35,937 nucleotides of DNA from Blepharisma japonicum (lineage: Eukaryota > Ciliophora > Heterotrichea > Heterotrichida > Blepharismidae): NCBI GenBank assembly GCA_949751835.1, contig CATKHK010000169.1:1-35937 (forward strand), in the 5' to 3' direction. Positions 1 to 35,937 of this stretch are shown here, in pieces (the first letter of the stretch is position 1; every line of letters begins with the position of its first letter). Both the position numbers and the translations under genes were made by a program. The notes beneath the pieces were generated by a model. It did no database searches. It saw nothing but the letters and a program-made list of their open reading frames with translations, and was not told the DNA's origin.

Positions 1-3000
1 ATTTAGTGCCTTTTCAATTTCTATTATACTAAGATCAACTTGGCTTTTTAGCAAATTTCTTGAGTCATCGGTGATAAAAATTTCAAAGGCATTTTTTGGG
101 TCCGAAATTGGATCTCTCTCCATTATTTTCCTAATTAATTCTTCTGGGTTGTCTTCAATAGGATCAATTGTCAAAGCCCCATCTTTTGTTTTATCTCTTA
201 TATCTTTTAAAATATGAATAAATGCTTCATCTGAATTTTCTTGTTTTTTAATTATCGAATTTACTTTTCCATATATGTTTGAAGCTTCTCTCTTTATATA
301 CTTTGTAAAAGCATATGTAAATGAGATGCTATATTTATTGAAATCAGCAATGAGTCTTCCTAAAGTATGAGCAAGTTTTTGAACTCCTTCAAATCGATCT
401 CCTTGAGTGTTTGAGCTTAGTAAAATTAATGGTCTTACACTTCGACATTTTTTTGCATACTCTACAATGCTTATTGTGCTTGCAATATCCAATTCTACTC
501 CTCTTGTTTCCATTAATCCTGGAGTATCAATTATATAAATAATCTCTCCATTAGCTAATTTTATGGCAATAGGCGTAATATATCTCGTTTCTGATTGATC
601 ACAAGATGAAATTATCGTCTTTTTTAATGCACGGTTTCATATAGCAGTTGCTTTAATGTCTGTTATCTCATCTTCTCCTGTAACATATTCCATTTTAGAG
701 CCACATAGAAAATGGACTGTCGTTGATTTTCCTACACCTGTAGCCCCAATTAACAAAATAATGTCTTTATTTTCTAAATCCCCAGAATTTTCGACTGATT
801 TTTTAATTAAACGCTCCATCTCCTTTACATTAACATGCCTATATTCTTTCAGGATATTTTCTGTTTCATTAATCAATCTTTCTCAATCTTGATTTTCAAA
901 ATAACTTCAAAAGTTTCCAGGGACATCAACTTTTCTGTTTTGCTGCAAAAACTCAACAAAATTGTTGAATTCTTTATTAGGATCAATAACTTCTATTTTC
1001 CTGTGAATGTCTAACTCTGGGTCAAAATTATAGTTTTTATAATAGGAATAGCACAAAATGCTGCTAAGAAATTTTTCAGCACAAAATGGCATAGCTTTGA
1101 TATCATCCATCAACTCTTCTATAGCATCAATCTTTTTTTGAATTTCCATTTTTATAGGATCTATAGCCAATAAAGAATTTGAGCTTATCATATTGTCACC
1201 GGAATGAAGCAATTCCAAATCAACAAGTTTCTCTTCTTCAAATTTTACAACATCCTTTTTAATTTTTTGGTTCTGTGAGATAGATCTCTCAGTGGTCTCT
1301 ATTGCTTTTTCTGGATCATTAGATATTTCGAAATCATATTTGGTTAATTCCTTTCTAAATTCTTCTGCTGAAACTGCAACCTCAGTTTTGTTTATTTCTG
1401 GCTCTTTTCTAGTCATATCTAAAATCTCACTAGTTTTCCCCACAAATATCATATCAATAGAGTTTCTCAATTCGTTTTCCATATTCTCAACTGCAAAAAT
1501 CATCCCGTATATATGAGGATCTGTATATAAGCTGCCATGAGTTGCTACCGTTTCTTGGTTTTGCCTTGTTACGCTCCCATTTAATTCAAACCTTCCCGCA
1601 ACTGGGTTGTTGATTGTGATTTGCAAAAATAAAGTCGTGATTATTTTATAAGTTATAGTCTGACTTTCAGAGTCAAGCTTTGCAGTGACTAAGTTCGTGG
1701 ATCCCCAAGTTCCCTTTTCAGTAATCCCTGCAGCTCCTAGATCTTTTTTGACTAGAAAAGCTCCCGCAAATTCATTAGGGCTTGTATCCCACAGGTAAAC
1801 TGATGAAATTCCTGCATCATAATAGAGGTTTTTATATTCATTAAAGATCTCATTGGCTTTTATTTCTACTTGGCGAAGCTCTGTAGAAGGAAAGTGGCCT
1901 TCTGGCAAAGGAGGCTGATAGTTGTTACTATAAGGAGATCTGTATGAGTGTTTGTCACGATTGAATTCACAGAGAATAAATTGTTTGCCTGTTCTTTCAC
2001 ATACTCCAAGTTCTAATGGCTTATCAGCTCTTTTGTAGACTTGATCAACTATTTCTCCGTTTTCAATTAATTTATAGATACCAGTAAGGCTCTTTTCACA
2101 GGTAGAAGGTGGCATTCTTCTCGTGAGTTCAATAGATGAGATAAGGACATCATGCATATTAAACAAGTTAGTATCATAAGGATTTGAGGGCGATATAATA
2201 AGAGATTTTGAGACTGGAGCTGCATGAAGAAAAGATTTGGAGTTTGAATGGGGCTGTTCATCCATCAGCATATTATATTTTATAATATTATCAGTTTCTT
2301 TAGGATCTTCAACTATCATAGATTTCGATCTAAGCATTATAAAAATGGAATGCAGCTTTTCCAACTCAGCAAGATTGCTTTCTTCAATTTTTACATCTTC
2401 TAATTTTTTCTTTTTAAGATAAAAGGAAATACTCTCTTTTGCTTCATTTATCTTTTCTTCAATTTCTTCAGGATTTTCGATTTCATACTTGATTAATCCT
2501 TGGCTAAGCACTTCTTCTAAATTTTCTTCCTCTAAAATTCTTGTTTTTGTATTAATTTCATTATGCAGTTTTAGCAACCTCTCAAGATCTAGCAATTTCT
2601 TTTTTGCATCATTCTCATCATTATATTTTTTCCTTTTATTATAAAAAGCAATGTCCCCTTTGGTCTCTTCTATTTCTTCTGGGACACTATTTATATCATT
2701 GATATCATACATTCTTAGCAGCTCATTAATTTCCTCCATGATTTTATTTACTTCACTCATGCTTTGCAGATTTTCGCATTCTTCATTTTTATGCTCTATC
2801 TCTTTTTCGCATTTTTTATTTCCATTTTCTGCTATAGCTTTGCTTTCATTCAAGCTTTCGGAAAGAATTCCAATGTTTTCTTCATTGATAAATTCTATTT
2901 CTACACTTAAAATTTCGTCACCATCGCTAGGGATCCTTATTCATTTTTTTGGAATGAGATTTTGGTTGAAGTCAATTAATGCTGACCCCATGAGCTTTTG

Positions 3001-3243
3001 GTCATTGTTCATCCAAACATAGAAAGTGATGACTACAGAACTAAAGTCGCTTTGCTGCAAGCGAACTGGAGAAAGGCTGGACACTTGTGATGGCTCAAAA
3101 GTTGAAGACTGAAAGATGATTTTGTTGGTTTGGGGATGTTTAAGTGTATAGCTGAGTTTTAGATTGGCATCAAACTCTAAGTTTGGCATTAATTCAACTT
3201 GGCTGACTTTAAAGTTAAGTCATGAGCTATCTCTGCTAATCAT
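1..3243 (-). CDS. Gene A: giant protein with C2-like N-terminus, capping-protein-beta domain and P-loop GTPase domain (3' part outside window)
   Basis: The start is ATG at 3243, matching the starts of genes C and D (all begin M-I-x-R-D-S-S). The frame is open to the left edge (about 1,081 codons) if TGA is Trp, for example the TGA codons just above 2941, 907 and 637. Residues 18-115 are beta-rich and possibly C2-like. Residues 150-310 are charged helix containing two copies of a roughly 65-residue repeat. Residues about 363-613 are a CapZ-beta domain absent from genes C and D. A third repeat copy follows. A GTPase domain starts near residue 800, with P-loop GATGVGKST (residues 833-841, near 721-747) and a DTPG switch motif near 520-531. 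By homology with gene D, a helical stretch, SecA-like motor and VWA part should follow beyond the edge. The GTPase looks AIG1/septin-like (TRAFAC type), but no clear NKxD motif is seen. It is the first member of the minus-strand array. The combined function is unknown. Confidence 0.9.
1405..2157 (-). other. F-actin-capping protein subunit beta (CapZ-beta) domain embedded in gene A
   Basis: About 250 codons in frame with gene A read as a nearly full-length capping protein beta subunit; the free-standing subunit is about 270-280 aa. Visible family signatures in order are: an N-terminal helix with RRMPPS; FNRDKHSYRSPYSNNYQPPL; an SSVYLWD strand; NGSVTRQ in the sheet; and a C-terminal helix with MENELRNS followed by FVGKTSEI. 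The C-terminal actin-binding tentacle is not clearly recognisable after TRK at about 1405-1413. Capping protein beta normally pairs with alpha to cap actin barbed ends, and no alpha subunit is in the window. Flanking residues on both sides align with genes C and D, which have only a short linker here. Identification of the domain is firm; whether it still dimerises or binds actin is unknown. Confidence 0.94.
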
Positions 3244-4139: not shown

Positions 4140-7100
4140 TTAAGTATAAGAAGGAGGATACATTTCTTTATAGAGCTTGACTGCTTCTTCTCCAGCTACC
4201 TTCCTTAAAATCTCAGAAGAAACCAAATCAGTTAGCCTATCAGCACCTGAAATTGAATTAATATGAAGAAATCCACTTTGTCCTTTTGTTAAAGCTGCGA
4301 TTTCTTCAAAAGCTTCTTCGGCGCCCTCATAAACATAAAATGCATTTATTGGGACTTTCTTTTTTATGATTGTTGCTAATTCATGCATATAATGTTCGAC
4401 TACTCTAAATTTAGATTTATTTCAATATGAAATATACTTGGCTCGTTTTCCCTGAATATCTTCAACTGTATTTGGAGGCATATCGCCAATTAAAATAACT
4501 TGTGAAATTGTATCATTTTTTATAACATTATTTACGTGCCATAATCCAACCTCTATTGCTTCATTTCCCCAGCCTCCTTCAGGTTCTACATTAGCCATAA
4601 AGCTTTCAAGAATATCTGGCTTATTTGTTCATGGTGAAACTTGAAGGATTTTATCGTCAGTAGAATTATAATTTCTATACACGCAATACTGCAACTGAAA
4701 GCACTCAGGGTTTATGCCTTTATTTGAAAGCACTGCGCACACTCGTGAGAACATAATTTTCACTGTATTTTTAGCATTTTGCAATAAATGAGACATAGAT
4801 CCAGTTGCATCCATTAAAACAATAGTTTTTGATGTTCCTAATTCAATACTGAGACCTTTATTAAGCTCTAACAAGAAATTTTTAGATTTTTGGACATCAT
4901 TATACTCGATTCAATCCAAAAACTTAATTGTCTCATTATGAAAAGTTTTAGATTGCATCACATAGCCTGATTCATTGGTATTCTTGATTTGATTAAACTC
5001 ATTTCTTTTCTTATTTAAAGGTTCATAAAATGTTCCGCCATTTCTCATTATTTCGATTTCCATTTTATTGACTTGGAATTTTTCTAGGTCATCATCTAAA
5101 AGTATTAAACTGTACGATCCTTCCTGCCCTTGTCTTGCAGACCTTCCCATAATTTGAGTTTCTTCTGATATATTTTCTGATAGGAATGCTTGAATTGCAT
5201 GAACTCCTCCATTGGTCTCAACTTCTTGGTTTTGGCATTTAAAATCAATTCCTCTGCCAAAAACTCGGGTTAATAATGTCACAGTATTTGGAACTGTTGC
5301 TTTTTTAATCATCATACCTCTATCCTCTGCTGATAAACTCTCTGTCATCAACTGTATATCATAGTCAGTGTCCTTTAAGCTCGAGTTATTATAAAAATTC
5401 ATTAGTTTCTTTTCGTCTTCGAAAAACACAAAAACAGATCTTTTGCAGCCTTCTTTTCTTCCAACTATTTGATTATTTATTTCTGCTAGTATCTTCATAT
5501 AATAATTGTCCTTGTTTTCTACATAAACATTTTTATTTATTCCAAATTTTCTGTTGCTTTTCCCAAATACTGATGGCATTAATGTTTTTAATTTTATATT
5601 ATATTCATTTTCTATAATATTTTTTTCATAATTCCCTAAAGTTTCTAAAGTTCCAGTAACTCCCATAATATACTTATATTTATGAGGTATTTCTGCAAAT
5701 GAGAACATTCCGCATTTAATTCCAATAAAAATATTTTCTTCTAAGCTATCTGTACTAATTTTTCCTTTTTCATTCTCAAAATAATAAGCAAATAATGTAT
5801 TATACCCATAGACAATATTAAATGAAATCCCATCATTTTCTTTGTAACCAATTTTATCATTTTGGACTATATAATCATGAGACTCAAATTGGCGCACATG
5901 ATTAATCATATCTTTAGCAGCTTCTTCTATAAGAAATTCAAAGCCTGGAAATTGTTGGTAGCACTGCTTAAATTCATTAGAATGCCACAGCTCTAAAAGC
6001 TGAGATGTTTTTCTATTTTTTCATATGTAGTCTGTTAAGCGGTTAATTGTGGGGTGTTTAAGCTTCGCGAGAGGTCTATAAATGTTTCCATAGAATGATT
6101 TGGTGAAAAATACATCGACTTCATCTATTAGAAGAACTTTAGGTCTTTCGTTATCTCCATAGCTTCTTTTTGGGATATCCCCAGTCCTTATAAAATCTAA
6201 GACTATTTCTCTGATATCTCCTTTAGAATTAATTTCATCTTCGCAAAGTTTATTAAAAGTTCCATACTTTATATAAGAGCAAATATTTAAAGCTGTGTAT
6301 AAAGGCTGAAAATCTTGGAAGTCTCTTTTACTTAAATGCTCACTATAGCAAGCACAGTTTATATTGAACCCTAATAAAGCAAGAATAGATGATAAGAATG
6401 CCAATGTAATCGACTTTCCTTCTCCAGTTAGAATTTGCACAAGATTATTTTTAGGTTTTGTATTCTCTTCATAGCCAATTCCAAGCATACGAAATATTGA
6501 TATGACTTGTATAGGGTGCGGAGTAACGAATGTAATTTCCTGATCTTCGTCATTAATATCTTGGTTGTATTTTTTAATATTCAAAAGCACCCATAGCATT
6601 GCTATATATGCTAAAAGCTCTGGAATAAATTCTTTCATTAGACTAATATCTGGATTTGGATACCTTGTTGTGAAGGTTTTAGATAGAACCTGAATTTCGC
6701 TAACTATTTGAGTTATGGCAGCATCCACTCCTTCATTACTAGTGACTCTTAAATAATTTCTTTGAGCTTCATCAAATCTTTCTATATAATCTAAATAATT
6801 TTCTTCTAGTTCTTGTAAATCCAGATTTGAGCCTTGGATATGCTGCAAAGCATAATCGATTCCATGCTCCTGGGTTTTTTTCAGTCACAATCTTTGCATT
6901 ACTCCTTCAAAGAATTTATGTTCTGTAATAATGCAGAGCCCTAGTCCGCTAGCATGTTTTTCTAGCTCTTCAAAGATTGCAACTGCTTTTGTTTTGTTCT
7001 TTTTTCTAAATGTATCTAAAAATTCATCCAAAATTGTATCTAATCCTGCTTTTAACAATGGAAAATTATTTGAAATGTTTTTCATGCCTATCATAGCCTC

Positions 7101-7334
7101 AATCATTTCTCTTGCGTCATTTCCTTTTTCCGCTTTTTCCTTTAATTCATAAGTTTTGCTATAAATTTTTTCTTCAATTTTTCTGAGTGTTTTTTTCCAA
7201 TCAAAATCTTTAATATTTAAACTCGCCTCAAAATGAGTTAAACAATTATAATAAATCCGAATCTCATTAAATTCTTCTTTCCTGATATCATCTTTATTTA
7301 TCAAATATAATGCATCGTTAACAATCCTATCCAT
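4140..7334 (-). CDS. Gene B: 5'-truncated paralogue with SecA-like DEAD motor and canonical VWA domain
   Basis: The frame is open from TAA at 4140 up to 7592, with TGA as Trp at several gaps (for example near 6018, 5910 and 4875). The first in-frame Met is at 7334, giving 1,064 aa. Homology to gene D continues upstream to about 7590, just before a TAG at 7593, so the copy has lost about 1,900 N-terminal residues and the true start is uncertain. From Met 7334, SecA-type motifs in order are: a Q-type motif (HPIQVISIFRML), GEGKS 304-308, YLS-like SKRD, DEVD from 404, MGVTGT, FGRGIDF (G693), and GRSARQG from 730. After these comes a VWA domain with an intact MIDAS, DATGSMS from 842, and a GDMPPN strand end. 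It is the only copy here with an intact MIDAS. More diverged than C, D and E are from each other. It could be a functional short gene or a relic; the conserved motifs favour past or present selection. Confidence 0.72.
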
Positions 7335-7592
7335 TTCTTTCGAAATGGATGCAATAATATCAGATTGTATTTCTTCAAGATTAGCATAATCTGTATTTAA
7401 ATGATTTTTTACTACTTCAAAACTTTTTATTTGGTTTCATCTTTCTTTGAGATCATTAACAGTGTCTTCTAGAAGTTTTTGATGCTTAATTTCATCGTTT
7501 TTAATTTTAAAAGTTGAGAAATAAGCTTTAAAGCCATAAAGAGTTTTACTTAAATCCTCAGATAAATCTGCATATCAAGGCTTGAGTTTAAA

Positions 7593-11173: not shown

Positions 11174-14100
11174 TTAAGAATTTGCAGGTTGCTCATCAAT
11201 TTTCTTTAAGATTTCCCCACAAATGAAATCTATCAGTATATCAACCGAATTAAATTCAGAAATTATTTTTTGGCCTCTAGTCCTTTCAGCAATTCTGCCA
11301 TATATAGCTCCTGCTTGACTATTATTATAAATCGCATGGACCGGGATATGTTTTTCTACAATTTTTTCTAATTCTTTATTAGGATCCATTATATTGCTAA
11401 ATTTTGAATTCGTTTGGCTAGAATCTCTGCCTCTTTTTTGACTATTTCCAGCAGTAAAATCGCCAAGTAAAATCACTTGAGAAATTGTATAATTTCTAAT
11501 AGCTTTATTTGCGTGCCATAACCCCAGCTCAGCTTCTCCATTCGTAAAGCCATCCTCAGGACGGATATTTCTCAAAAATCCATCAATAGTACCAGGAGTT
11601 TTTGCCCATGGAGAAATTTGCAGTATTTTATCGTCATTAAAGTTATAGTCTCTGTAAATGCAATACTGAAGTTTGAAACATTCAGGGCTCATTTGTTTTG
11701 CTGCCAAAACATCTGAAATTCTTGAGAATATTGTCCCCACTGTATTTTTGGCTACTCTTAATGCTTGTTGTCCAGCGTTCATTATAATAATTGTTCTCGA
11801 AACTTCTACTGTGCTAAGCCCTAAACTAGCTTCTAATAAGAATTCTTTAGCACTTCTTATATCATTTTGCTCAATACTATCTATATATTCCATTGATCTA
11901 TCATGTCAAGCTTTAGCTCTTTTTACAGCATCAGATTTCGTTTGGCTTTTTTGCATTTTAAATTCGTCTCTTTTTGTATTTATAGACTTATAAAAAGTTC
12001 CTCTTTTTCTCATGCTTTCAATATCTTCTATGGTAATATTATAGGGTCCAAGATCTGTGTCTAATAGAATCATGCTGTATGATCCTTGCTGCCCTTGTCT
12101 TGCTGTTCTTCCCTTAATCTGAGTTTCTTCTGATCTACTTTCTGCAAGGAATGTTTGAATTACATGAACTCCCCCGTTTTTCTCAATATCTTTGTTTAGA
12201 CACTTAAAATCAGTTCCTCTCCCAAAAATTCTAGTCAATAATGTGACTGTATTTGGAACTGTTGCTTTTTTAATCAGCATAGCTCTGTCTCCTGCATTCA
12301 ATTCCTCAGTGATCAGCTGAATATCATAGTCAGTATCTTTTATTCCAGAGTAATTAAAAAATTTCATTAATTTGTCCTCATCTTCGAAAAAAACAAAAAC
12401 AGCTCTTCTGCTGTCCTCTGTATTCCCTTTAATTTGACTCTCAATTTCTTTTATAATTTTTATGTGATAGTCATCTTTATTTTCTACATAAACATCCTTT
12501 TCACTCCTAAAAATTCGATTATTTTTTCCAAAAACGGATGGCATAAAGGTGCTTAGTGTGATATTATATTCATTCTCTATTATATTTTTTTCATAGGGCT
12601 CCAAAGTATCCAAAGTTCCTGTAACTCCCATAATATAATTGAACTTGTGAGGAATTTCTGCATATGAGTAATTACCACAATAAATAGAAAGAGAAATATT
12701 TTTTTCTAAACTTCCTTGAGTGATTTTCCCCTTTTCTTTTTCGTTATAGTAGGCAAATAACGTTTCGTATCCATATGAATAATTAGTTATATATCCATCA
12801 TGCTCTCTGTAGGCAATTTGATCCCCTTGAACTTTGTATTCATGATCGTTGAATTTGTTTACATCTCTCACCATATCTCTGGCAGCCCTTTCAACAAGAA
12901 TTTCAAAGCCTGGGAACTCTCGACAGCAGTTATTATATACACTTGTATTCAGAAGCTCATCAATTTTAATTGTCTCTCTGTTTCTTCATATATAATCTGT
13001 CAATTCTTTAATTTTAGAATGTGTCATCAATTTTGCAGGGTTATAAGTGCGTCCATAAAAAGATTCGGAAAAGAAAACATCAACTTCATCTATCAAGAGT
13101 GCTGTAGGTCTGTCTGCAATTTTATTAGTCTGCTTCTTCATTTCTCCTGTCTTTATTAAATTTTCTGCAATTTCTCTAATATTTCCATGAGTGTTGATAA
13201 AATTATTACAAAGCGTTCCGAAGGTTCCATACTCTATCCACGAATTAATTCCTAGAGTTGAATACAAATCTGTAAAATAATCGAAATCTCGCTTGCTTAA
13301 GTAAGAGCTATAGCAGGCACAATAGGTTTTAAATCCTATTAAAGCTAGAATAGAGCATAAAAACGCCAATGTGATTGATTTTCCTTCGCCAGTAAGGATC
13401 TCTACTAAATTATTTCCAAAACTCGTGCCTTTTGTATAGCCAATGCCAAGCATACGGAATATTGAAAGAACCTGTATTGGGTGAGGAGCAAAAATCGAGC
13501 TTTTTAGCTCTTCATCATTTTCGTCTTCCTCGTATTTTTCTATGTTTATAAGCCCCCAAAGATTTGCAAGGTAAGCCAAAAGCTCTGGATATGACTCTTT
13601 TCATTGTTCTAAATCTGGATTTAAAGAGTTTACAGTTAAATTTTTTGAATAATTCTTTATTTCTCCAATCATTTGGTCTATAGCACCACGAACTTTAATA
13701 TTTTTTGAAATTTTCCAAAATTTGGTTTGAATATCATTAAATTTTCCAATGTAAATTTTATACTTGCTTTCCAGTTCTTTCTTATTTATATTTACCCCTT
13801 TGATATTTTCCAATGCAAATTCTATTCCATGCTGTTGTGTTTTGCTTGTCCATATTTTTTGCATTACTGCTTCAAAAAATTTGTGCTCCATAATTATATT
13901 AAGACCTAAACCACTTGGGTGTGATTCAAGTTCTTGAGTGATGGCAACTAATAGTTCTTTATTTCTTTTTCTTTTGAATTTTTCAAAAAATGCATCTATA
14001 ATTTCATCCACTTCTTTTTTTAATAAAGGAAAGTTATTGGAAATATCTTTTATGCTTATCATAGCTTCTGCTATTTCTGTTGAGTTTGTTGAGCTTTCTG

Positions 14101-17100
14101 CCCTTCTACTTAAATTATATGCTCTGTCAATAATCTTCTTTTTAATATTCCCAACAGTCTCATTCCAATTAAGACCTTTGATTATTAAATATTTCTCAAA
14201 ATTAGCCAAGCTGCTATAATAAGATTGTATTTCTTTAAAATCTTCATTTCGTATATTCTCTTTATCAATCAAAGAAGCAGCTCTTTTTACAATTTTATCT
14301 ATTTCGTTACACAGAGACTCAAAAGCCCCTTTTATTGTCTTCTCAAAATCGATAACGTCAGAATCTAAATGATTTTTTATTTCTTCATATCTATTTAATT
14401 TATTTCATTTATCTTGAATTTCATAGGAAATTCTTTCAAGTATTGCAGGATGTTTGATTTCAGAAAATTCAATTTTTAGGTTTTTGAAATACACACTTAA
14501 TTTATAAACTTCTTCATTTAAGCTCTCTACATAAAATGAATAAGGCTGAATTTTCAAGGTTTGTTGATAATTATCATAAAATCTATCACTTTGATGCTCA
14601 TCCAAAAATTCTTTAAAAATTTTCAAAAAGTCATCTCGTTCCTTGATTTTTTTTAAAATTATATTGCAGGTGTGAAGATTGTTGGAGTCTTTGAGCACTT
14701 TAATATAATCTTGATATAATTTTGCATAAAAGTTTGAAATTCCTGTCAGCATCTTTACAATGGTGGTATTGACACCAAAAATGTCAGAGTTTTTTGGGTC
14801 TTTACTAATTTTAGTATTAAATTCCATAAAAGCTGCATAAACTCTAAATGCCTCTACCAACTCTTCACTGCTGTTCTTGCTGTCAATATTTATAAGGATG
14901 CCCAAAGTCCTTTTAATTAATTGCTCAATACACTGATAAATTTCTGAAAGAGTCGTTTCACTCTCATTTATTAACTCTATTAGTTCATCTTTTGAAGAGA
15001 AAATTGATGCTTTATCAAAAACAATATTTCAGTCTTTCTTATAAAGAGCCGAGTTTATTTCACTTTTAGCTGAGGCTAAAATTTCTCTCAGTTTGCTTTC
15101 TACATACTGCATGTCTGATTGATTTTTTTGTTCATTTAATTCTCGGAGCAGTTTGCACAGTTCGCTAATGTTTTCTTCTTTTGCTTGATCATCAATTTTA
15201 TTTCTGACTTCTTTTTTTTCCCTTTTTATATTTTTTTTCAAATCTTCAACCAAAGTCTCCACATTTTCTTTAATTCCTTTAGGCAAAAAGCCTAAAATAG
15301 AAGTAATTTCATCAATGATTTCTTTTTTTTCTGAATGATTTTTATTTGGGAATTCATTTTTAGCTGCTTCAAGCATTTCATTAATAAAGCCAATAATTTC
15401 ATTTAGAGCTTCTCTATAAACCTGATAATTATTGGCAGCTTCTTCAATTTCCAGAATTTGAGGGAACTCTTTAAGATCTTTAATTGTGCAATTATTTATA
15501 CTCTGTATAAGGTTTAATCGTAAATCATCAATCCAATTTCTAACTTTTTGGATTTCCAAAGGAATAATTTCTCCATTAAGCTCTGTATTCAGATCTTGGA
15601 TATCTTTTATTTTTTCTTCAGCTTCGTTAAATTTGAAGGCTTGAGCGGTAATTATAATAGAATTGAGAAATTCCATAATTTTATTTCAGAAAATTCCGGT
15701 GGTTTCTTTTTCAAGCTCAATAAGTGCTTTCCTTTTAGGCTTCTCAAACAAAGTAAAAATTTTGGTTTTTTTAGCTAAATTGACCTTATGAATATTTATA
15801 ATAATTTTAGGTATTAGTGAATGGTCAAGCTTAGAGTTGTTTATATTTAAAGCATTTCCTTTTGCGTCTGATAATATCGATTCAATGATAAATTGTGCTC
15901 TATCTTTAACAATGTCTTTATTATCGTTCCAAGTTGCTTCATCAAGGCATTCTATCAATTTATTTGCTCTTCTAAATTTGTGAATTTCAATTGATTCTAG
16001 TATGTGTTTGCATGTTTGGTTAAGCTTTGTGCTTAGATTTTTTTCATACATAGATGAAAGTGATTTAAAATCATCATTAACAATAGCAAATTCAGTGACT
16101 ATAACTAATAATGATGACATCCTTTGAAATCTGCTATTTTCATCGCTAAGCCTAAGCTCTTCACTAAGGATATCTCTCAATTCATCAAGTTCGGTGCAAT
16201 ATCTCCTATAGTCAGGCTCCATATCAAAATATCTCGACAATGAGGGAGATTTTGTGCTTACTAAAGACATTTCTTTAAAGTGCAAGGCGGTCTGATGGGA
16301 AAATGTTTTTATTCACTCGAAATCAGTAAATGATTCATCCTGTATTTTACTTGGAACGCTATTGAAGTATTGGGCTAATGAATCAAGATTTCTATTATAT
16401 ATCTGTATCAAATTTTCGAGAATATTTTTAGAAATTGCTTCAGTTAATTTAAATAGTTCAGGAATTTTTTTGCACTCTTCAATATACTGATACGAATTTT
16501 CTACTTTATCAACATCAATAGAGCCTTCTTCCATCCTATTATTGAATTTTTGAATTTGATTTTCAATTTCTTTTATTTTTTCATCTACATCTTCAATGCT
16601 TGCAAAGCCATTATTTCTAACAAATCCTTCAAGTATCTCTGCGCTTTCTCCTGCTTCTTCACCTTGAGTGTATTTAAGTCTAATTTCTCTCAATATCTCA
16701 AGCTCTTCATTTACTGTCTCAGGGTTAAGTTCTCTTCTAATAAATTTCAGCGATTCATGCACTCTTTTTCTAAATATTCTAATAATTTTTTTATGACAAT
16801 TTTTCACTGAAGGAAAAAATTCTTTAAGTTGTGAAACTTCTTTCATTTTTTGAACAATAGAATATCCTTTAGATACATTAAGAGAAAACTCATATCCTAA
16901 GTCAATATCTCCTAAGTCAACCTTAAGTTTATCAATTAAGAATTTAATTTCGTTTTCGATCCCTGAAAATTTGTTAGTATATTTCGCTTCGCTGAATTTT
17001 TCAATTCATTTTCATGACTCAAGATAAGCTAAACAGCCATAGAGCGGTGCAAAGTCCACAGAATCAGGTGAGTTGCTGAAAGATTTAATAATATCTTTTG

Positions 17101-20100
17101 CTTCTCTCTTGTAAACATTAATTTTTTTTATTACGGAGTTAAGCGTTTCTCGATAAGAAGCAGCTATAAGGCATTCTATGTCTGGAACTTCCATTAATAA
17201 AACGAATTCATCAAAGTTGGCTTCAAATATAGAGAAATTACATGATGTATCACTATTTATAATTGACAAAACCTGTGCCTTAGATTTTTCAAAATATGCT
17301 TGGTACTCTTCCTTAATTGAAGATAAAAGATTGTCTATTTCATTTATAGCTATAAGATCACGCAAACTATGAACATCTAAAGCTTCTTTTATAATCGAAA
17401 TGTTTACTTTAAGTACTTCAATATCACTTTTTTCAATGCGTTCTTTCTTTAATGGAATAATTGAGATATTATATCACTCTTTTAAGCTTGAAATAAATTG
17501 ATTTTTTAGAAAATTAAGTTTCTCATCTAAATTTGCATAGCCCAAGTGCTCACGGGCAAGTCCTAATAATCTATCTGTTTCAGAAATGTTATTAGCAAAA
17601 TCGGCGAAATTGTTATTGTTTAAATCTGCACTTCCAGTTGTCAATAAGTTATCAATAAAATCTACATATTTGTCGCAAAGACTTTTATAAAGAGCAGCTA
17701 ATTCTTCAAATGATTCGCCTAAAATTTTACAATTTTTTAGCTGAGTGCTCAAAATATAATCATCAACATCTTCAACTTTAAAAGTCTGACTGAGCAAGGC
17801 TTAGCTTATCGACAATATTTTCTAGCATTCCATTTGAAGAAGGCGTTTCCTCTCTCAAATGCTTTTTTCTAATACCGTCTGATATTTTTATAGCTCTATA
17901 AATTTTTTTATAATGATTTATAGTATTTTCGTCTAAAGTTCCATTATTGTCTAGATAGCTATTAAATTGTAAAATTGTTTTGTTATATATTTCCTTAGTA
18001 GTTCTAATTACTGATTCAACGCATTCAATATATTGAGGCTCAAATGGTGTAAATAATCGCCCAATGTATTGAAGCTCATCCAATTTATATCTAATCATTT
18101 CATAGTCAAGAGAATTTAGTGCTTTTTCAATTTCTGTTTTACTAAGAGCCACTTGGTGTTTTAGTAAAGCTCTTGAATCTTCGGTGATAAACCTTTCAAA
18201 GGCATTTTTTGGGTCCAAAATTGGATCTCTCTCCATTATTTTTCTAATTAATTCTTGATGATCATCTTTAACAGGATTAATTGTCAAGACCCCATCTCTT
18301 GTTTTATCACTTATATCTTTCAAAATATGAAAAAATGCTGTACCTGAATTTTCTTGGCTGTTAATTATCGAATTTACTTTTCCATGTATGTTTAAAGCAT
18401 CTGACTTTTTATATTTTGTAAAAGCATATGTAAATGAGATGCTATATTTATTGAAATCAGTAATGAGTCTTCCTAAAGTATGAGCAAGTTTCTGAACTCC
18501 TTCAAATCTATCTCCTTCAGTTTTTGAGCTTAGCAAAATTAATGGTCTTACACTTCGACATTTTTTTACATACTCGACAATGCTGATTGTGTTTGCCATG
18601 TCCACTTCTGCTCCACATGTATCCATTAATCCTGGAGTATCGCATAAATAAGCAGTCTCTCCAGTATTAGCTAAATTAAGAGGAATATGCGTAATATATC
18701 TCGTTTCTGATTGAGAACGAGATGAAATTACCGTATTTTTTAATGCATGGTTTTGTACAATAGTTGCTTTAATGTCTCTTATCCCATCTTCAGTAACATA
18801 TTCCATTTTAGAGCCACATAGAAAATGTGTTGTCGTTGACTTTCCTGAGCCTGTAGCCCCAATTAGCAAAATAATGTCTTTATTTTCTAAATCCCCAGAA
18901 TTTTTGATTGATTTTTTAATCAAACGGTGCATCTCTCTTAAATTAATAGGCCTATATTCTTTCAGTATTTTTTCTGTTTCTCTAATCAATCTTTCTCATT
19001 CTTGATTTTCAAAATACGTCCGAAAATTTTCAGAGATATCATCTTCTCCATTTTGCTGTAAAAACTCAATAAAATTGTTGAATTCTGCGTTAGGATTAAT
19101 AGCTTCTATTTTCCTGTGAATATTCAGCTCTGGGCCAAAATTATAGGTTTTATAATAGGAATAGCACAAAATGCTGGTAAGAAATTTTTCAACACAAAAT
19201 GGCATAGACTTGATATCGTCCATTAACCCTTCTATAACGTCAATCTTTTTTTTAGTTTCAATTTCTATAGGATTTATAGTTAATAAAGGATTTTGGGGGA
19301 GCTTTTTGCTATCAGAATGCAGCAATCCCAAAACATCAAGCTTCTCTTCTTCAAATTTTGCAACATCCTTTTTCTTTTTTTGGTTCTTTGGAATAGATAT
19401 CTTAGAAGTCTCTATTGCTTTTTCTGATTTATTAGGTCTTTGCCCAATCGGGAGGAAACTAGGATCTTTTATTATCATAGATTTTGATCTAAGCTTTATA
19501 TAAATGGAATGCAGCTTTTCCAGTTCAGCAAGATTACTTTTTTCAATTTTTGCATCTTCTAATTTTTTCCTTTTAAGGTAAAAGGAAATACTCTCTTTTG
19601 TTTCATTTATCTTTTCTTCGATTTGTTGAGGATTTTCAATATCATACTTGGTTAATCCTTGTTTAAGCTCTTCCTCTAAATTTTCTCCCTCTAAAAGGCT
19701 TTTTTTTTGATTAATTTCATTATGCAGTTTTAGCAACCTCTCAAGATCTAGCAATTTCTTTTTTGCATCTTTCTCATCATTATATTTTTTCCTTTTATTA
19801 TAAAAAATAATGTCCTCTTTGACCTCTTCTATTTTTTCTGGGACAATATTTATATCATCGATATCATAGAGTCTTAACAGCCCATTAATTTCTTCCATGC
19901 CTTTATTTACTTCACTTATGCTTTGGTGAGGAGTTTCAATGTTTTCTTCGTTGAAAAATTCTATCTCTACATTTAAAATTTCCTCACCATCGCTAGGGAT
20001 CTTTAGTAATTTTTTTGAAATGAGATTTTGGTTGAAGTCAATTAATGCTGATCCCAGCAGCTTTTGGTCATCGTTAATCCAAATATAGAAAGTGATGACT

Positions 20101-20309
20101 ACAGGACTAAAGCCGCTTTGCTGCAAGGGAACTGGAGAAAGGCTGGACACTTGTGATGGCTCAAAAATAGAAGATTGAAAGATCACTTGGGAGGTTTGGG
20201 AATCATTAAGTGTATAGTTGAGTTCTAGATTGGCATCTAACTCTAAGTTTGGCATTAATACAACCTTGCTGATTTTAAAGCTAATTAATGAGCTATCTCT
20301 ATTTATCAT
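11174..20309 (-). CDS. Gene C: giant GTPase / SecA-like / VWA protein, duplicate of gene D with a frameshift
   Basis: The start is ATG at 20309 (M-I-N-R-D-S-S), as in gene D. The order is: C2-like N-terminus; two complete helical repeats and a partial third; P-loop GATGSGKST near 18835-18863 and DTPG near 18640; a long helical middle; SecA-type GEGKS near 13390 and DEVD near 13090; MGVTGT, FGRGTDF and GRTARQG between about 12630 and 12100; and a VWA-like end with a lost MIDAS. Codons 1-843 are in one frame. Then one extra base relative to gene D near 17780-17785 creates a TAA (17778-17780), and every codon from there to the stop is in the next frame with no further break. Near the end, small indels shift the frame again, so it stops at TAA 11174, about 15 residues earlier than gene D. 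It is either a recently inactivated copy, two shorter ORFs, or an assembly error in a homopolymer. Confidence 0.8.
17778..17790 (-). other. +1 frameshift and premature TAA in gene C
   Basis: On the plus strand gene C reads caactttaaaagtctgactg, where gene D reads caactttgaagcatgactg, one base shorter. In gene C this turns SLAQS-C-F-K-V-E into SLAQS-D-F-stop. The downstream reading frame resumes at once in the +1 phase (F-K-V-E-D-V-D-D). Confidence 0.85.
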
Positions 20310-22781: not shown

Positions 22782-25700
22782 TTAATATCAATCTCTATTG
22801 AATGACGGATACAAATCTCAGTTAAGAATTTGCGGGTGCTCATCATCAATTTTCTTTAAGATTTCCCCACAAATGAAATCTATCAGCATATTATCCGAAT
22901 TAAATTCAGAAACCATTTTTTGACCTCTAGTGTTTTCAGCAATTCTGCTATATATAGCTCCTGCTTTACTATTATTATAAATCGCATGCACCGGGATATG
23001 TTTTTCTACAATTTTTGCTAATTCTTTATTAACATCTATTATATTGCTAAATTTTGAATACGTTTGACTAGACACTCAGCCCCTTTGCTGCCTATTTTCA
23101 GCAGTAAAATCGCCAAGTAAAAACACTTGAGAAATTTTATAATTTCTAATGGCTTTATTTGCGTGCCATAACCCCAGCTCAACTGCTCCATTTGTAAAGC
23201 CATCCTCAGGACGGATATTTCTCAAAAATCCATCAATAGTATCAGAATATTTTGCTCATGGAGAAATTTGCAGTATTTTATCGTCATTAAAGTTATAGTC
23301 TCTGTAAATGCAATACTGAAGTTTGAAACATTCAGCGCTCATTTGTTTTGCTGCCAAAACATCTGAAATTCTTGAGAATATTGTCCCCACTGTATTTTTT
23401 GCTGCTCTCAATACTTGTTGTCCAGCATTCATTATAATAATCGCCCTTGAAACTTCTACTGTGCTAAGCCCTAAGCTAGCTTCTAATAAAAATTCTTTAG
23501 CACTTCTTTTATCATTTTGCTCAATACTATCTATATATTCCATTGATCTATCGTGCTGAGCTTTAGCTCTTTTTACAGCATCAGACCTCGTTTGGTTTTT
23601 TTGCATATTAAATTCGTCTCTTTTTGCATTTATAGATTCATAAAAATTTCCTTTATTTCTCATATATTCCACATCTTCTATTGTAATATTAAAGGGTCCA
23701 AGATCTGTGTCTAACAGAACCATGCTGTATGATCCTTGCTGCCCTTGCCTTGCTGTTCTTCCCTTAATCTGAGTTTCTTCTGATCTACTTTCCGCCAGAA
23801 ATGTTTGAATTACATGAACTCCTTTGTTTGTCTCAACTTCTCGATTTAGACACTTAAAATCAGTTCCTCGCCCAAAAACTCTAGTCAATAATGTGACTGT
23901 ATTTGGAACTGTTGCTTTTTTAATCAGCATAGCTCTGTCTCCTGCATTCAATACCTCAGTGATCAGCTGAATATCATAGTCAGTATCTTTTATTCCAGAG
24001 TAATTAAAAAATTTCATTAATTTGTCCTCATCTTCAAAAAAAACAAAAACAGCTCTTCTGCTGTCCTCTGTTTTCCCTTTAATTTGGCTCTCAATTTCTT
24101 TAATTATTGTTATGTGGTAGTCATCTTTGTTTTCTACATGAACATCCTTTTCACTCCTAAAAATTCGATTATTTTTTCCAAAAACGGATGGCATAAAGGT
24201 GCTTAGTGCAATATTATATTCATTCTCTATTATATTTCTTTCATAGTGCTCCAAAGTTTCCAAAGTTCCTGTAACTCCCATAATATAATTGAACTTGTGA
24301 GGAATTTCTGCATATGAGTAATTACCACAATCAATAGAAAGAGAAATTTTGTTTTTTAAACTCGCTTGAGTGATTTTCCCCTTTTCTTTTTCGTTATAGT
24401 AGGCAAATAACGTTTCGTATCCAAATGTTAGATTAGTTATATATCCATCGTGCTGTCTGTAGGCAATTTTATCCCCTTGAATTATGTATTCATGAGCATT
24501 GAAGTTGTTTACATCTCTCACCATCCCTCTGGCAGCCCTTTCAACAAGGATTTCAAAGCCTGGGAACTCTCGACAGCAGTTATTATATACACTTGTATTC
24601 AGAAGCTCATTAATTTTAATTGTCTTTCTGTTTCTTCAAATATAATCTGTCAATTCTTTAATTGTAGAATGTCTCATTCCTTGAGCAGAGTTATAAGTTT
24701 TTCCATAAAATGATTCGGAAAAGAAAACATCAACTTCATCTATCAAGAGTACTGTAGGTCTGTCTGCAATTTTATTAGTCTGCTTCTTCATTTCTCCTGT
24801 CTTTATTAAATTTTCTGCGATTTCTCTAATATCTCCATGAGTGTTGATAAAATTATTGCAAAGCGTTCCGAAGGTTCCATACTCTATCCAATTTAAAATT
24901 CCTAGAGTTGAATACAAATCTGTAAAATAATCGAAATCTCGCTTGCTTAAGTAAGAGCTATAGCAGGCACAATAGATTTTAAATCCTATTAAAGCTAGAA
25001 TAGAGGATAAAAACGCCAATGTGATTGATTTTCCTTCTCCAGTAAGGATCTCTACTAAATTATTTCCGAAGATCGTGCCTTTTGTGTAGCCAATGCTAAG
25101 CATACGGAATATTGAAAGAACCTGTATTGGATGAGGAGCAAAAATCGAGCTTTTTTGCTCTTCATCATTTTCGTCTTCCTGGTATTTTTCTATGTTTATA
25201 AGTCCCCAAAGATTTGCAAGGTAAGCCAAAAGCTCTGGATATGAGTCTTTTAATTGTTCTAAATCTGGGTTTAAAGAGTCTACAGTTAATTTTTTTGAAT
25301 AATTCTTTATTTCTCCAATCATTTGGTCTATAGCACCACGAACTTTAATATTTTTTGAAATTTTCCAAAATTTGGCCTGAATCTGATTAAATTTTTTATC
25401 GTAAATTTTATACTTGCTTTCCAGTTCTTTCTTATTTATATTTACCCCTTTGATATTTTCCAATGCAAATTCTATTCCATGCTGTTGTGTTTTGCTTGTC
25501 CATATTTTTTGCATTACTGCTTCAAAAAATTTGTGCTCCATAATTATAGTAAGACCTAAACCACTTTCGTGTGATTCAAGTTCTTGAGTGATCGCAACTA
25601 ACAGTTCTTTATTTCTTTTTCTTTTGAATTTTTCAAAAAATGTGTCTATAATTTCATCCATTTCTTTTTTTAATAAAGGAAAGTTATTGGAAATGTCTTT

Positions 25701-28700
25701 TATGCTTACCATAGCTTCTGCTATTACTCTTGAGTTTGTTGAGCTTTCTGCCCTTCTTCTTAAATTATATGCTCTATCAATAATCTTATTTTTAATATTC
25801 CCAACAGTCTCATTCCAATTAAGACCTTTGATTATTAAATATTCCTCAAAATTAATCAAGATGCTATAGCAAGATTGTATTTCTTTAAAATCTTCATTTC
25901 GTATATTCTCTTTATCAATCAAAGAAGCAGCTTTTTTCACAATTTTATCTATTTCGTTACACAGAGACTCAAAAGCCCCTTTTATTGTCTTCTCAAAATC
26001 GATAACGTCAGAATCTAAATGATTTTTTATTTCTTCATATTTATTTAATTCATTTCATTTATCTTGAATTTCATAGGAAATTATTTCAAGAAATACAGGA
26101 TGTTTGATTTCAGAAAATTCAATTTTTAAGTTTTTGAAATACACACTTAATTTATAAACTTCTTCATTTAAGCTCTCTACATAAAATGAATAAGGCTGAA
26201 TTTTCAAGGTTTGTTGATAATTATCATAAAATCTATCACTTTTATGCTCTACCAAAAATTCTTTAAAAATTTTCAAAAAGTCATCTCGTTCCTTGATTCT
26301 TTTTAAAATTATATTTAAGATACGAAGATTGTTGAAGTCTTTGAGCTCTTTAATACAATCTCGATGTAATCTTTCATAAAAGTTTGAAATTTCAGTCAGC
26401 ATCTTTGCAATGGTGGTATTGACACCAAAAATGTCAGAGTTTTTTAAGTCTTTACTAATTTTGGTATTAAATTCCATAAAAGCTACATAAACTCTGAATG
26501 CCTCTACCAGCTCTTCACTACTGTTCTTGCTCTCAATATTTATAAGGGTGTTCAAATTCCTTTTAATTAATTGATCAATGCACTGATAAATTTCTGAAAG
26601 AATCGTTTCACTGCCATTTATTAAATCTATTAGTTCATCTTTTGAAGTGAAAATTGATGCTTTATCAAAAACAATATTTCAGTCTTTCTTATAAAGAGCT
26701 GCGTTTATTTCACTTTTGGCTGAGTTTAAAATTTCTCTCAGTTTGCTTTCTACATACTGCATGTCTGATTGATTTTTTTGTTTATTTAATTCTCGGAGTA
26801 GTTTGCACAGTTCGCTAATGTTTTCTTTTCTTGCTTGATCATCAATTTTATTTCTGACTTCTTTTTTTTCCCTTTTTATATTTTTTTTCAAATCTTCGAC
26901 CAAAGTCACCACATTTTCTTTAATTTCTTTAGGCAAAAAGCCTAAAATAGACGTAATTTCATCAATGACTTCTTTTTTTTCTGAATGATTTTTATTTGGG
27001 AATTCATTTTTAGCTGTTTCAAGCATTCCATTAATAAAACCAATAATTTCATTTAGAGCTTCTCTATAAACCTGATAATTATTGGCAGCTTCTTCAATTT
27101 CCAGAATTTGAGGGAACTCTTTAAGATCCTTAATTGTGCAATTATTTATACTCTGTATAAGGTTTAATCGTAAATCATCAATCCATGTTCTGATTTTTTG
27201 GATTTCCAAAGGAATAATTTCTCCATCAAGCTCTGTATTCAGATCTTGGATATCTTTTATTTTTTCTTCAGCTTCGTTAAATTTGAAGGCTTGAGCAGTA
27301 ATTATAATAGAATTGAGAAATTCCATAATTTTATTTCAGAAAATTCTGGTGGTTTCGTTTTCAAGCTCAATAAGTGTTTTCCTTTTAGGCTTCTCAAACA
27401 AAGTAAAAATTTTGGTTTTTTTAGCTAAATTGACCTTATGAATATTTATAATAATTTTAGGTATTAGTGAATGGTCAAGCTTAGAGTTGTTTATATTTAA
27501 AGCATTTCCTTTTGCGTCTGATAATATCGATTCAATGATAAATTGTGCTCTATCTTTAACAATGTCTTTATTATCGTTTCAAGTTGCTTCATCAAGGCAT
27601 TTTATCAATTTATTTGCTCTTTTAAATTTGTGAATTTCAATTGATTCTAGTATGCTTTTGCATGTTTGGTTAAGTTTTCTGCTTAGATTTTTTTCATACA
27701 TAGATGAAAGCGATTTAAAATCATCATTAACAATAGCAAATTCAGTGACTATAACTAATAATGATGACATCCTTTGAAATCTGCTATTTTTATCGCTAAG
27801 CCTAAGCTCTTCACTAAGGATATCTCTCAATTCATCAAGTTTGGTGCAATATCTCCTATAGTCAGGCTCCATATCAAAATATTTCGACAATGAGGGAGAT
27901 TTTGTGCTTATTAAAGACATTTCTTTAAAGCGCAAGGCGGCCTGATGGGAAAATGCTTTTATTGACTCGAAATCAGTAAATGATTCATCCTTTATTTTAC
28001 TTGGAATGCTATTGAAGTATTGGGTTAAAGAATCAAGATTTCTATTATAGATCTGCATCAAATTTTCGAGAATACTTTTAGAAATTGCTTCAGTTAATTC
28101 AAATAATTCAGGAATTTTTTTGCACTCTTCAATATACTGATACGAATTTTCTACTTTATCAACATCAATAGAGCCTTCTTCCATCCTATTATTGGATTTT
28201 TGAATTAAATTTTCAATTTCTTTTATTTTTTCATCTACATCTTCAATGTTTGCAAAGCCATTATTTCTAACAAATCCTTCAAGTATCTCTGCGCTTTCTC
28301 TTGCTTCTTCACCTTGAGTGTATTTAAGTCTAAGTTCTCTCAACATCTTAAGCTCTTCATTTGCTGTCTCAGGGTTAAGTTCTCTTCTAATAAATTCCAG
28401 CGATTCATGCACTCTTTTTCTAAATATTCTAATAATTTTTTTATGACAATTTTCCACTGAAGGAAAAAATTCTTTAAGTAGTGAAACTTCTCTCATTTTT
28501 TGAACGATAGAGTATCCTTTAGATACATTGAGAGAAAACTCATATCCTAAGTCAATATCTCCTAAGTCAACCTTAAGTTTATCAATAAAAAATTTAATTT
28601 CATTTTCAATTCCTGAAAGTTTGTTAGTATATTTTGCTTCACTGAATTTTTCAATTCATTTTCACGACTCAAGACAAGCTAAGCAGCCATGCAGCGGCGC

Positions 28701-31700
28701 AAAGTCCACAGAATCAGGTGAGTTGATGAAAGATTTAATAATATCTTTTGCTTCTCTTTTGTAAACATTAATTTTTTTCATTACGGAGTTAAGCATTTCT
28801 CGATAAGAAGCAGCTATAAGACATTCTATGTCTGGAACTTCCATTAATAAAACGAATTCATCAAAGTTGGCTTCAAATATAGAGAAATTACATGATGTAT
28901 CACTATTTATAATTGACAAAACCTGTGCCTTAGATTTTTCAAAATATGCTTGGTACTCTTCCTTAATTGAAGATATGAGATTGTCTAATTCATTTATAGC
29001 TATAAGTTCATGCAAACTATGAACACCTAGAGCTTCTTTTATAATCGAAATGTTTACTTTAAGTACTTCAATATCACTTTTTTCAATGCGTTCTTTCTTT
29101 AATGGAGTAATTGAGATATTATATCACTCTTTTAAGCTTGAAATAAATTGATTTTTTAGAAAATTAAGTTTCTCATCTAAATTTGCATAGCCCAAGTACT
29201 CACGGGTAATTCCTAAATATCTATCTGTTTCAGAAATGCTATTAGCAAAATCGGCAAAATTGTTATTTTTTAAATCTGCACTTCCAGTTGCCAATAAGTT
29301 TTCAATAAAATCTACATATTTGTGGCAAAGACTTTTATAAAGAGGAGTTAGTTCTTCAAATGATTCGCTTAAAATTTTACAATTTTTTAGCCAAGTGCTC
29401 AAAATAAAATCATCAACGTCTTCAACTTTGAAGCATGACTGAGCAAGACTTAGCTTATCGACAATATTTTCTAGCATTCCATTTGAAGAAGGTGTTTCCT
29501 CTCTCAAATGCTTTTTTCTAATATCGTCTGATATTTTTATAGCTCTATAAATTTTTTTATAATGATTTATAGTATTTTCGTCTAAAGTTCCGTTATTGTC
29601 TAGATAGCTATTAAATTGTAAAATTGTTTTTTTATATATTTCCTTAGTAGTTCTAATTACTGATTCAACGCATTCAATATATTGAGGCTGAAATTGTGTA
29701 AATAATCGCCCAATGTATTGAAGCTCATCCAATTTATATCTAATCATTTCATAGTCAAGAGAATTTAGTGCTTTTTCAATTTCTGTTTTACTAAGAGCCA
29801 CTTGGTGTTTTAGTAAAGCTCTTGAATCTTCGGTGATAAACCTTTCAAAGGCATTTTTTGGGTCCAAAATTGGATCTCTCTCCATTATTTTTCTAATTAT
29901 TTCTTGATGATCGTCTTTAACAGGATTAATTGTCAAGACCCCATCTCTTGTTTTATCTCTTATATCTTTCAAAATATGAAAAAACGCTGCATCTGAATTT
30001 TCTTGGCTGCTAATTATCGAATTTACTTTTCCATGTATGTTTAAAGCATCTGATTTATGATAATTTGTAAAAGCATATGTAAATGAGATGCTATATTTGT
30101 TGAAATCAGTAATGAGTCTTCCTAAAGTATGAGCAAGTTTCTGAACTCCTTCAAATCTACCTCCTTCAGTTTTTGAGCTTAGCAAAATTAATGGCCTTAC
30201 ACTTCTACATTTTTTTGCATACTCGACAATGCTTATTGTGTTTGCCATATCCACTTCTGCTCCATTTGTATCCATTAATCCTGGAGTATCGCATAAATAA
30301 ACAGTCTCTCCAGTATTAGCTAAATTTAGAGGAATATGCGTGACATATCTCGTTTCTGATTGAGGACGAGATGAAATTACAGTTCCTTTTAATGCGGGAT
30401 TTTGGATATAAGTAGCTTTAATGTCACTTATTCCATCTTCAGTAACATATTCCATTTTAGAGCCACATAGAAAATGAGTTGTCGTTGACTTTCCTGAGCC
30501 TGTAGCCCCAATTAGCAAAATAATGTCTTTACCTTCTAAATCCCCAGAATTTTTGATTGATTTTTTAATTAAACGGTCCATCTCTCTTAAATTAACAGGC
30601 CTATATTCTTTCAGGATTTTTTCTGTTTCTCAAATCAATCTTTCTCATTCTTGATTTTCAAAATGCATCCGAAAGTTTTCAGAGACATCATCTTCTCCAT
30701 TTTGCTGTAAAAACCCAATAAAATTGTTGAATTCTGCGTTAGGATTAATAAATTCTATTTTTCTGTGAATATTCAGCTCTGGGTCAAAACTATAGGTTTT
30801 ATAATAGAAATAGCACAAAATGCTGGTAAGAAATTTTTCAGCACAAAATGGCATAGACTTGATATCGTCCATTAACCCTTCTATAACGTCAATCCTCTTT
30901 TGAGTTTCAATTTCTATAGGATTTATAGTTAATAAAGGATGTGGGGGGATCTTTTTGCTATCAGAATGCAGCAATCCCATAACAGCAGGTTTCTCTCCTT
31001 CAAATTTTACAACATCCTTATTATTTTTTTGGTTCTTTGGAATAGATATCTTAGAGGTCTCTATTGATTTTTCTGGTTTATCAGGTCTTTGCCCAATCAG
31101 GAGTAAACTAGGATCTTTTTCTATCATAGATTTTGATCTAAGCTTTATATAAATGGAATGCAGCTTTTCCAACTCAGCAAGATTACTTTTTTCAATTTTT
31201 GCATCTTCTAATTTTTTCCTTTTAAGGTAAAAGGAAATACTCTCTTTTGTTTCGTTTATCTTTTCTTCAATTTGTTGAAGATTTTCAATATCATACTTGG
31301 TTAATCCTTGTTTAAGCTCTTCCTCTAAATTTTCTCCCTCTAAAAGGCTTATTTTTGGATTAATTTCATTATACAATTTTAGTATTCTCTCAAGATCTAG
31401 TAATTTCTTTTTTGCATTTTTTTCATCATCATGTTTTTTCCTTTTATTATAAAAAGCAATATCCTCTTTGACCTCTTCTATTTCTTCCGGGACAATATTT
31501 ATATCATCGATATTATAGATTCATAGCAGCCTATTAATTTCTTCCATACCTTTATTTGTTTCACTTATGCTTTGGTGAGGAGTTTCAATGTCTTCTTCGT
31601 TGAAAAATTCTATCTCTACATTTAAAATTTCCTCACCATCGCTAGGGATCTTTAGTAATTTTTTTGAAATGAGATTTTGGTTGAAGTCAATTAATGCTGA

Positions 31701-31958
31701 CCCCAGCAGCTTTTGGTCATCGTTCATCCGAATATAGAAAGCGATGACTACAGAACTAAAGCCGCTTTGCTGCAAGGGAACTGGAGTAAGGCTGGACACT
31801 TGTGATGGCTCAAAAATAGAAGATTGAAAGATAACTTGGGAGGTTTGGGAGTCATTAAGTGTATAGCTGAGTCCTAGATTGGCATCTAACTCTAAGTTTG
31901 GCATTAATACAACCTTGTTGATTTTAAAGCTAAGTAATGAGCTATCTCTAATAATCAT
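22782..31958 (-). CDS. Gene D: intact giant protein, C2-like + GTPase + helical + SecA-like motor + VWA-like (about 3,058 aa)
   Basis: One frame is open from ATG 31958 to TAA 22782 if TGA is Trp. Without that it would be broken about a dozen times, always where paralogues carry TGG or another sense codon. Residues 18-115 are beta-rich (C2-like, tentative). About 130-260 are charged helical repeats. The P-loop GATGSGKST is at 484-492 and DTPG at 556-559. About 700-2000 are helical/coiled coil. The SecA-type motor has GEGKS 2307-2311, DEVD 2407-2410, MGVTGT 2560-2565, GRGTDF from 2696 and GRTARQG from 2733. A VWA-like end follows, in which the MIDAS position reads NAGQQ (2844-2848). The last 13 residues follow a TGA at 22818 and still align with LYRELYPS of gene E. 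No intron is needed. SecA proteins are ATP-driven preprotein translocases; the scaffold and wing domains that follow the motor in SecA are not evident, so the substrate is unknown. Confidence 0.92.
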
Positions 31959-35600: not shown

Positions 35601-35783
35601 ATCATATCTTCTGCTATTTCTCTGGGTGCTTCTGCTTTATCTGCTCTACATTTTAAATCATATGCTCTGCTTATGATCTTCTTTTTAATATTCCCAACGG
35701 TCTCTTCCCAATTAAGACCATTGATTATTAAATATTTCTCAAAATTAGCTAAACTGCTATAACAAGTTTGAATTTCTTTAAAG
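32684..35783 (-). CDS. Gene E: 5'-truncated paralogue, SecA-like motor plus VWA-like end
   Basis: The frame is open from TAA 32684 through a TGA-Trp near 34565 and beyond 35783. Similarity to genes C and D ends at about 35783, at the segment F-K-E-I-Q. Further upstream the frame stays open to the window edge (a Met at 35935), but that part is unrelated to the family and lies antisense to a coding-looking plus-strand frame. About 1,033 codons belong to the family. Motifs present are GEGKS near 34930, DEVD near 34625, MGVTGT near 34180, FGRGTDF near 33770 and GRTARQG near 33660. In the VWA-like end the MIDAS is replaced by NAGQQ near 33320, and it closes with LYRELYPSPQ. The C2-like, GTPase and helical parts are missing. 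The start is unknown, so it may be expressed from a captured promoter or be a relic. Confidence 0.75.
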
Positions 35784-35937
35784 CTTAACAAATATGGAAT
35801 TGATGAAGGAATTCTAACCATATATTTGTCCCTAAACTCTGTTGAAGATGCTAAAAATCTTGGGAAAAGTATCAAAATTTTAGGTCGGGATTTTACGATA
35901 GAACACCACTTCACTAGAGTTTGTAATAAATGCAATA
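35784..35937 (+). CDS. Partial plus-strand reading frame abutting truncated gene E
   Basis: From the point where gene E similarity ends (35784), the plus strand is open to the window edge for 51 codons. It begins L-N-K-Y-G-I-D-E-G-I and ends near R-V-C-N-K-C-N. Its composition (beta strand ILTIYLSL, helix VEDAKNLGKSI, strand IKILGRDFTIEHH) resembles a folded domain more than random AT-rich DNA. It may be an internal piece of another gene into which the gene E fragment recombined. No start codon is visible and I do not recognise the family. Confidence 0.35.

Follow-up and report, generated by a model that had tools for sequence, protein, structure and literature searches.

How does a protein subunit that normally exists free come to lie within a giant GTPase protein? 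Capping protein beta (CapB) is normally such a free subunit. In the first-pass annotation of a contig from Blepharisma japonicum, a whole CapB domain was placed in frame inside a giant GTPase protein, here called gene A. The window analyzed is that entire contig (C169, 35,937 nucleotides), one of the 224 contigs that make up the genome of 45,185,585 bases. The location of the domain, the parent gene from which it came, the family into which it was inserted and the selection that now acts on it are described below.

A capping-protein beta domain in the frame of a GTPase protein

Gene A is a single open frame when TGA is read as W (code 4), and five of its codons are TGA translated in this way. 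In PMC9942806, both UGA as Trp and CCCTAACA telomeres are described for Blepharisma stoltei; in the present genome, C36, C47 and C69 are among several contigs with CCCTAACA repeats at their first bases, and the two traits fit a heterotrich ciliate of the Blepharisma type. The open frame together with a full-length PF01115 match in a profile search (residues 369-608, 237.9 bits against a cut-off of 26.3, E = 1.6e-70) bears out the presence of a whole CapB domain, and all five CapZ-beta motifs named in the annotation were found in gene A (Table 1). The annotation had put the insert at 1405-2157, which is correct as to location; the edges defined by DNA homology to a free gene are slightly wider, at approximately 1392-2163.

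Table 1. Coordinates of gene A and its parts, of two paralogues in the window, and of the other CapB-bearing genes (other contigs are named with the position).
Feature	Position	Strand	Details or basis
Gene A	1..3243	minus	1081 codons, start MISRDSS, ends at contig base 1
N-terminal family domain, 121 aa, common to the tandem family, no Pfam name	2881..3243	minus	
38-aa lead-in, unique to the four embedded CapB copies	2161..2274	minus	similarity search and alignment
Captured copy of the free CapB gene	1392..2163	minus	DNA alignment and blastn of flanks against C51
Internal Met M363, once the start codon of the free gene	2155..2157	minus	
PF01115 F_actin_cap_B match	1420..2139	minus	Pfam, profile 3-237 of 237
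CapB motif RRMPPS	2104..2121	minus	
CapB motif NRDKHSYRSP	1933..1962	minus	
CapB motif SSVYLWD	1786..1806	minus	
CapB motif VTRQ	1561..1572	minus	
CapB motif MENELR	1465..1482	minus	
Family coil region past the insert	847..1391	minus	family alignment
P-loop GTPase-like domain	1..846	minus	Pfam MMR_HSR1 and motifs
G1 motif GATGVGKST	721..747	minus	
G3 motif DTPGLM	511..528	minus	
Paralogue C, no CapB	11174..20309	minus	two frames meeting at about 17778-17800; linker 19434-19469
Paralogue D, GTPase and SecA-like parts, no CapB	22782..31958	minus	3058 codons; linker 31083-31118
A2, near twin of gene A	C208:1-3246		
F	C208:6256-12948		stops after 2231 codons, no SecA match
E	C140:52125-63992		3956 codons, stop-free, SecA_DEAD match at cut-off score

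The GTPase shares its frame with CapB. The MMR_HSR1 profile scored 27.3 bits in gene A (cut-off 21.9) and 21.9 bits, equal to the cut-off, in paralogue C; in D, E and the others it was at or below the cut-off. G1 and G3 motifs are present, and at the position expected for G4 ([NT]KxD) inspection by eye found just FTYAFTKY, with no canonical motif. Among solved structures no convincing relative of the GTPase was found, the best hit (E = 0.066) being unrelated. Base 1 of the window is the contig end and truncates gene A inside or just after the GTPase region; because the contig stops there, the ends of gene A are not all within the window. The annotation had further mentioned a SecA-type motor; the SecA-like part is absent from gene A as assembled and is seen in embedded copy E and in paralogues C and D.

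Among the other parts of gene A, the N-terminal family domain was found at seven places in the genome, six of them with E <= 1.7e-21. The 38-residue lead-in, when searched at E <= 10, has no place in the genome beyond the four embedded copies. In the alignment, the coil motif that precedes the insert recurs at the start of the coil region past it (compare row C14a).

Parent gene and edges of the insert

The profile search detected seven PF01115 matches in the genome, of which four are embedded and three lie in short frames of their own. The embedded copies are distributed over C169 (one), C208 (two) and C140 (one), and none of them is a free subunit, since all are internal to host frames of 1081 to 3956 codons. 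The free beta genes C51 and C118 each comprise 266 codons from stop to stop, and that on C73 has 280. Two alpha loci (PF01267) were also found, on C35 (E = 1.4e-52) and C8 (E = 8.6e-52), and both look intact. The genome-wide check for ordinary beta and alpha genes that the annotation had called for thus found three of the former and two of the latter. The C73 gene (L016:2832-3671) is a third, divergent free capping-beta gene, whose protein is 30-34% identical to the other beta copies and whose C-terminal tail is longer than in C51 and C118.

The parent of the insert is the free beta gene C51. The embedded copies share 88% DNA identity with C51 (dS 0.21-0.26) and their proteins are 79-80% identical to it, while against C118 the DNA identity is 76-77% and dS is about 1.2. 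Homology to C51 starts six bases 5' of its ATG and ends one base past the codon located seven codons upstream of its stop. The event captured nearly the whole coding sequence, including the start codon, which is kept as an internal Met. A viral origin of the fusion was considered and rejected: in one scan against viral_contigs, the embedded domain had six pattern matches and no relative.

Host family and a probable two-module gene

A search of the genome with the GTPase returned 15 matches, 12 at E <= 2.8e-69 and three weak. CapB is present in four of the 12 strong modules, and the modules without it, where the site was aligned, have a short linker or nothing there. The alignment agrees with the annotation that paralogues C and D lack CapB and have a short linker at the insert site. 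The CapB-bearing GTPase modules form one clade (support 96/92, found in 94% of 200 bootstrap trees), and the capture apparently took place once, in one clade of the tandem family. The N-terminal domain, coils and GTPase of this family of tandem GTPase-SecA-like giants are common to the CapB-bearing genes, and the SecA-like part is also found in the CapB-bearing copy E. SecA_DEAD and the helicase C-terminal domain gave partial profile matches only, with SecA_DEAD above the cut-off in D and C and exactly at the cut-off in E. In the Pfam domain scan of 12 family frames, several of them in part (A2, C25b, the window frame at 32684-35935 and the ends of C14b, C25a, C98 and E being left out), no integrated host domain was above the cut-off besides GTPase, SecA, helicase and CapB.

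Several irregularities were observed in the array. Paralogue C is broken near 17778-17800 (minus strand) into frames of 843 and 2208 codons, where D reads through, with a one-base difference in length between the paralogues; this is a frame break or a sequencing error. On the minus strand of the window, 4140-7592 and 32684-35935 hold frames of the SecA region (1150 and 1083 codons, the second running off the contig end) that do not include the N-terminal and GTPase parts, and they are family fragments or partial members. Downstream of copy F on C208 (L010, about 4551-6040), pieces of the family helical region occur on both strands, as signs of rearrangement in the array. In copy E, the helical region that follows the GTPase is found twice (1-924 and about 1752-2717 of E align to the same region of F), so the whole module has been duplicated within the gene.

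The contig ends point to a longer gene. A and A2 are both cut by their contig ends at one and the same residue, E and F likewise share the residue with which they start at theirs, and in the family alignment about 97 residues separate the two points. None of 13 genome matches is a contig that bridges the two, and the simplest reading of the gap would be a short repeat too alike to assemble. The intact gene is probably A or A2, a link, and E or F, which would give about 5,100 residues with two CapB-GTPase modules; in the two-module gene carrying E, SecA would lie at the far end.

Selection on the captured domain and its possible roles

A codon model with separate ratios for free and embedded branches was fitted to 250 codons of six sequences. 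The dN/dS came to 0.042 for free and 0.704 for embedded branches, and a single ratio was rejected (2 x (2193.31 - 2148.04) = 90.5, p ~2e-21). Fixing the embedded ratio at 1 cost 2.62 (p = 0.11), so it is indistinguishable from 1. When the embedded branches were split, the ratio was 0.64 in the crown (a borderline difference from 1, p = 0.053) and 1.6 in the stem (not different from 1, p = 0.57), the latter leaving room for adaptive change at capture. On the branch of C51 since the split the ratio was 0.10 (p = 0.018 against 1 and p = 0.039 against the embedded branches), figures resting on few changes (5 nonsynonymous and 10 synonymous by parsimony). C51, C118 and vertebrate CapZ beta agree in 96 columns, of which 26 were altered in at least one embedded copy; for 120 others the count was 40 (Fisher p = 0.37). 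The Gly of NRDGDSYRSP is an example of a deeply conserved polar site changed in all four copies. Counts within pairs of host genes are small: between E and F the dN/dS was 0.75 for helical regions, 0.76 for coil and 0.77 for CapB, and between A and A2 it was 1.34 and 0.49 for coil and 0.74 for CapB, while the GTPase was more constrained in the same pairs (0.30 and 0.50, likewise from small counts).

Residual constraint was assessed by one-sided tests, uncorrected for their number. A neutral simulation that used the mutation spectrum seen in the data gave an expected nonsynonymous share of 0.747, compared with 0.674 among the 135 derived states (P = 0.02); 13 of the 135 conflict with the tree, which means that some gene conversion or parallel change has occurred. 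No stops were found in the embedded copies compared with 4.27 expected (P = 0.01), which is explicable by the host frame alone. Changes in conserved hydrophobic columns (17 of 91, P = 0.04) and from hydrophobic to polar residues (5 of 91, P = 0.05) were below expectation; in the simulation, conserved columns (P = 0.08) and conservative exchanges (P = 0.07) showed trends short of significance. Constraint has collapsed since capture: the purifying selection of a working subunit is not seen, and what remains is weak. The weak signals, namely the absence of stops and the fewer core changes, suggest that the captured domain still folds.

The embedded domain matches CapZ beta well (chain 1izn_B, beta-1, E = 5.6e-53), covering the profile end to end and keeping the NRD..SYRSP, VYLWD, TRQ and MEN regions. 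Unlike CapZ beta, it is internal to a giant protein, lacks the last seven codons of its parent and has a dN/dS of about 0.70. A single-sequence structure model of window 1174-2256 had a mean pLDDT of 30.7, too low to be usable. PMC8821504 describes the C-terminal tentacle of beta with its amphipathic helix; actin is contacted mainly through a basic patch carried by the cap and alpha tentacle, and the beta tentacle serves as a lock. Beyond the stretch matched to 2kxp_B, the C51 frame continues for nine residues and 2kxp_B itself for another 24, and in the embedded copies the last seven residues of the parent are lost and the sequence continues into the host. Judged by sequence only, neither C51 nor the embedded copies have a C-terminal tentacle. 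The proposal in the annotation that actin barbed-end binding is coupled to a nucleotide-driven machine finds no support, given the contrast in dN/dS (about 0.70 against about 0.04) and the conserved columns that were not spared; it is weakened further by the fact that, in the place of the vertebrate beta tentacle, even the free parent has only a very short tail. The captured domain possibly still pairs with alpha, and it would no longer cap.

Four accounts of the insert were weighed. An assembly or haplotype artefact, fusing a free beta gene to a GTPase gene, might be suspected from the ends of C169, C208 and C140, which fall within the family at shared positions and therefore mark a region that is hard to assemble. 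It was rejected because four copies with shared junctions sit on three contigs; these copies differ from one another by 5-20% and have diverged flanks, one of them lies inside the stop-free frame of 3956 codons, and the contig ends are all away from the CapB junctions. Such an artefact is highly improbable, and the fusion of CapB into a GTPase-family protein is real; host and CapB would be translated as one protein. Plant NLRs with integrated domains carry copied host domains as decoys. By analogy, the giant protein could be a surveillance or conflict protein that bears a decoy copy of a host cytoskeletal target: like those NLRs, it is a large nucleotide-binding protein, belongs to a tandem family and contains a copied host protein, the family is rearranging and fast-evolving, and a nearly whole host gene was captured and then released from its own function. 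The likeness does not extend to the kinds of domain, as a single kind of integrated domain was found in the 12 family frames scanned and the host is a GTPase rather than NB-ARC. No immune role is known, the relaxed rate explains the data without one, and a bait of this type seems improbable.

Another possibility is that the embedded beta pairs with free alpha, thereby bringing the giant protein to capping protein or to the ends of actin filaments, with drift confined to the precise capping residues. The two intact-looking alpha genes, the identity still shared with C51, the end-to-end profile match, the avoidance of conserved hydrophobic columns, the fewer hydrophobic-to-polar changes and the lack of stops would all fit such a tether, but the dN/dS indistinguishable from 1 and the deeply conserved polar sites altered in all copies speak against it, and we consider it rather unlikely. 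It is also unlikely that the complete protein would be a machine of about 5000 residues, with two CapB-GTPase modules and a SecA-like motor, whose CapBs bind free alpha and link GTP- and ATP-driven work to actin ends, or else a decoy-bearing surveillance protein outside plants. By a slight balance of probability, we favor the view that the CapB insert is a folded, loosely constrained passenger or spacer, following its capture from C51. The frame, the domain, its edges, the parent gene, the single clade and the relaxed rate are established and support this view. The residual constraint and the stem ratio speak against it, so the embedded domain may have a retained or new binding role.

In the favored reading, a copy of the C51 beta gene, starting six bases ahead of the ATG and stopping seven codons short of the stop, entered one lineage of the tandemly repeated giant GTPase-SecA-like family in frame, apparently in a single event. 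CapB then multiplied together with the GTPase module, giving four embedded copies, probably two per intact protein, and the host protein would be translated straight through the captured domain. Freed from most of the constraint on a capping subunit, the domain now evolves about as fast as the coil and helical regions of the host, and its frame would be kept because the downstream GTPase and SecA parts must be made.

The annotation knew of no earlier fusion of CapB to a GTPase or SecA-type protein; none is reported in the open-access literature searched, where no capping-beta fusion of such kind was found either. A captured capping-beta gene inside a GTPase-SecA giant thus looks new, although the domains are known ones joined by an ordinary event and selection in the captured part is weak. 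It is an unusually clean in-frame capture of a near-whole gene, with its parent, its two edges, the old start codon and four descendants all visible, and the fate of the captured domain can be traced directly from them. At this locus one can also ask what becomes of an obligate heterodimer subunit that lies within a giant nucleotide-driven protein: whether its partner is retained, lost or exchanged. If alpha binding is true, the protein would be an actin-linked motor of a kind not met in the literature searched; if it is absent, a large folded domain would be easily carried as a passenger.
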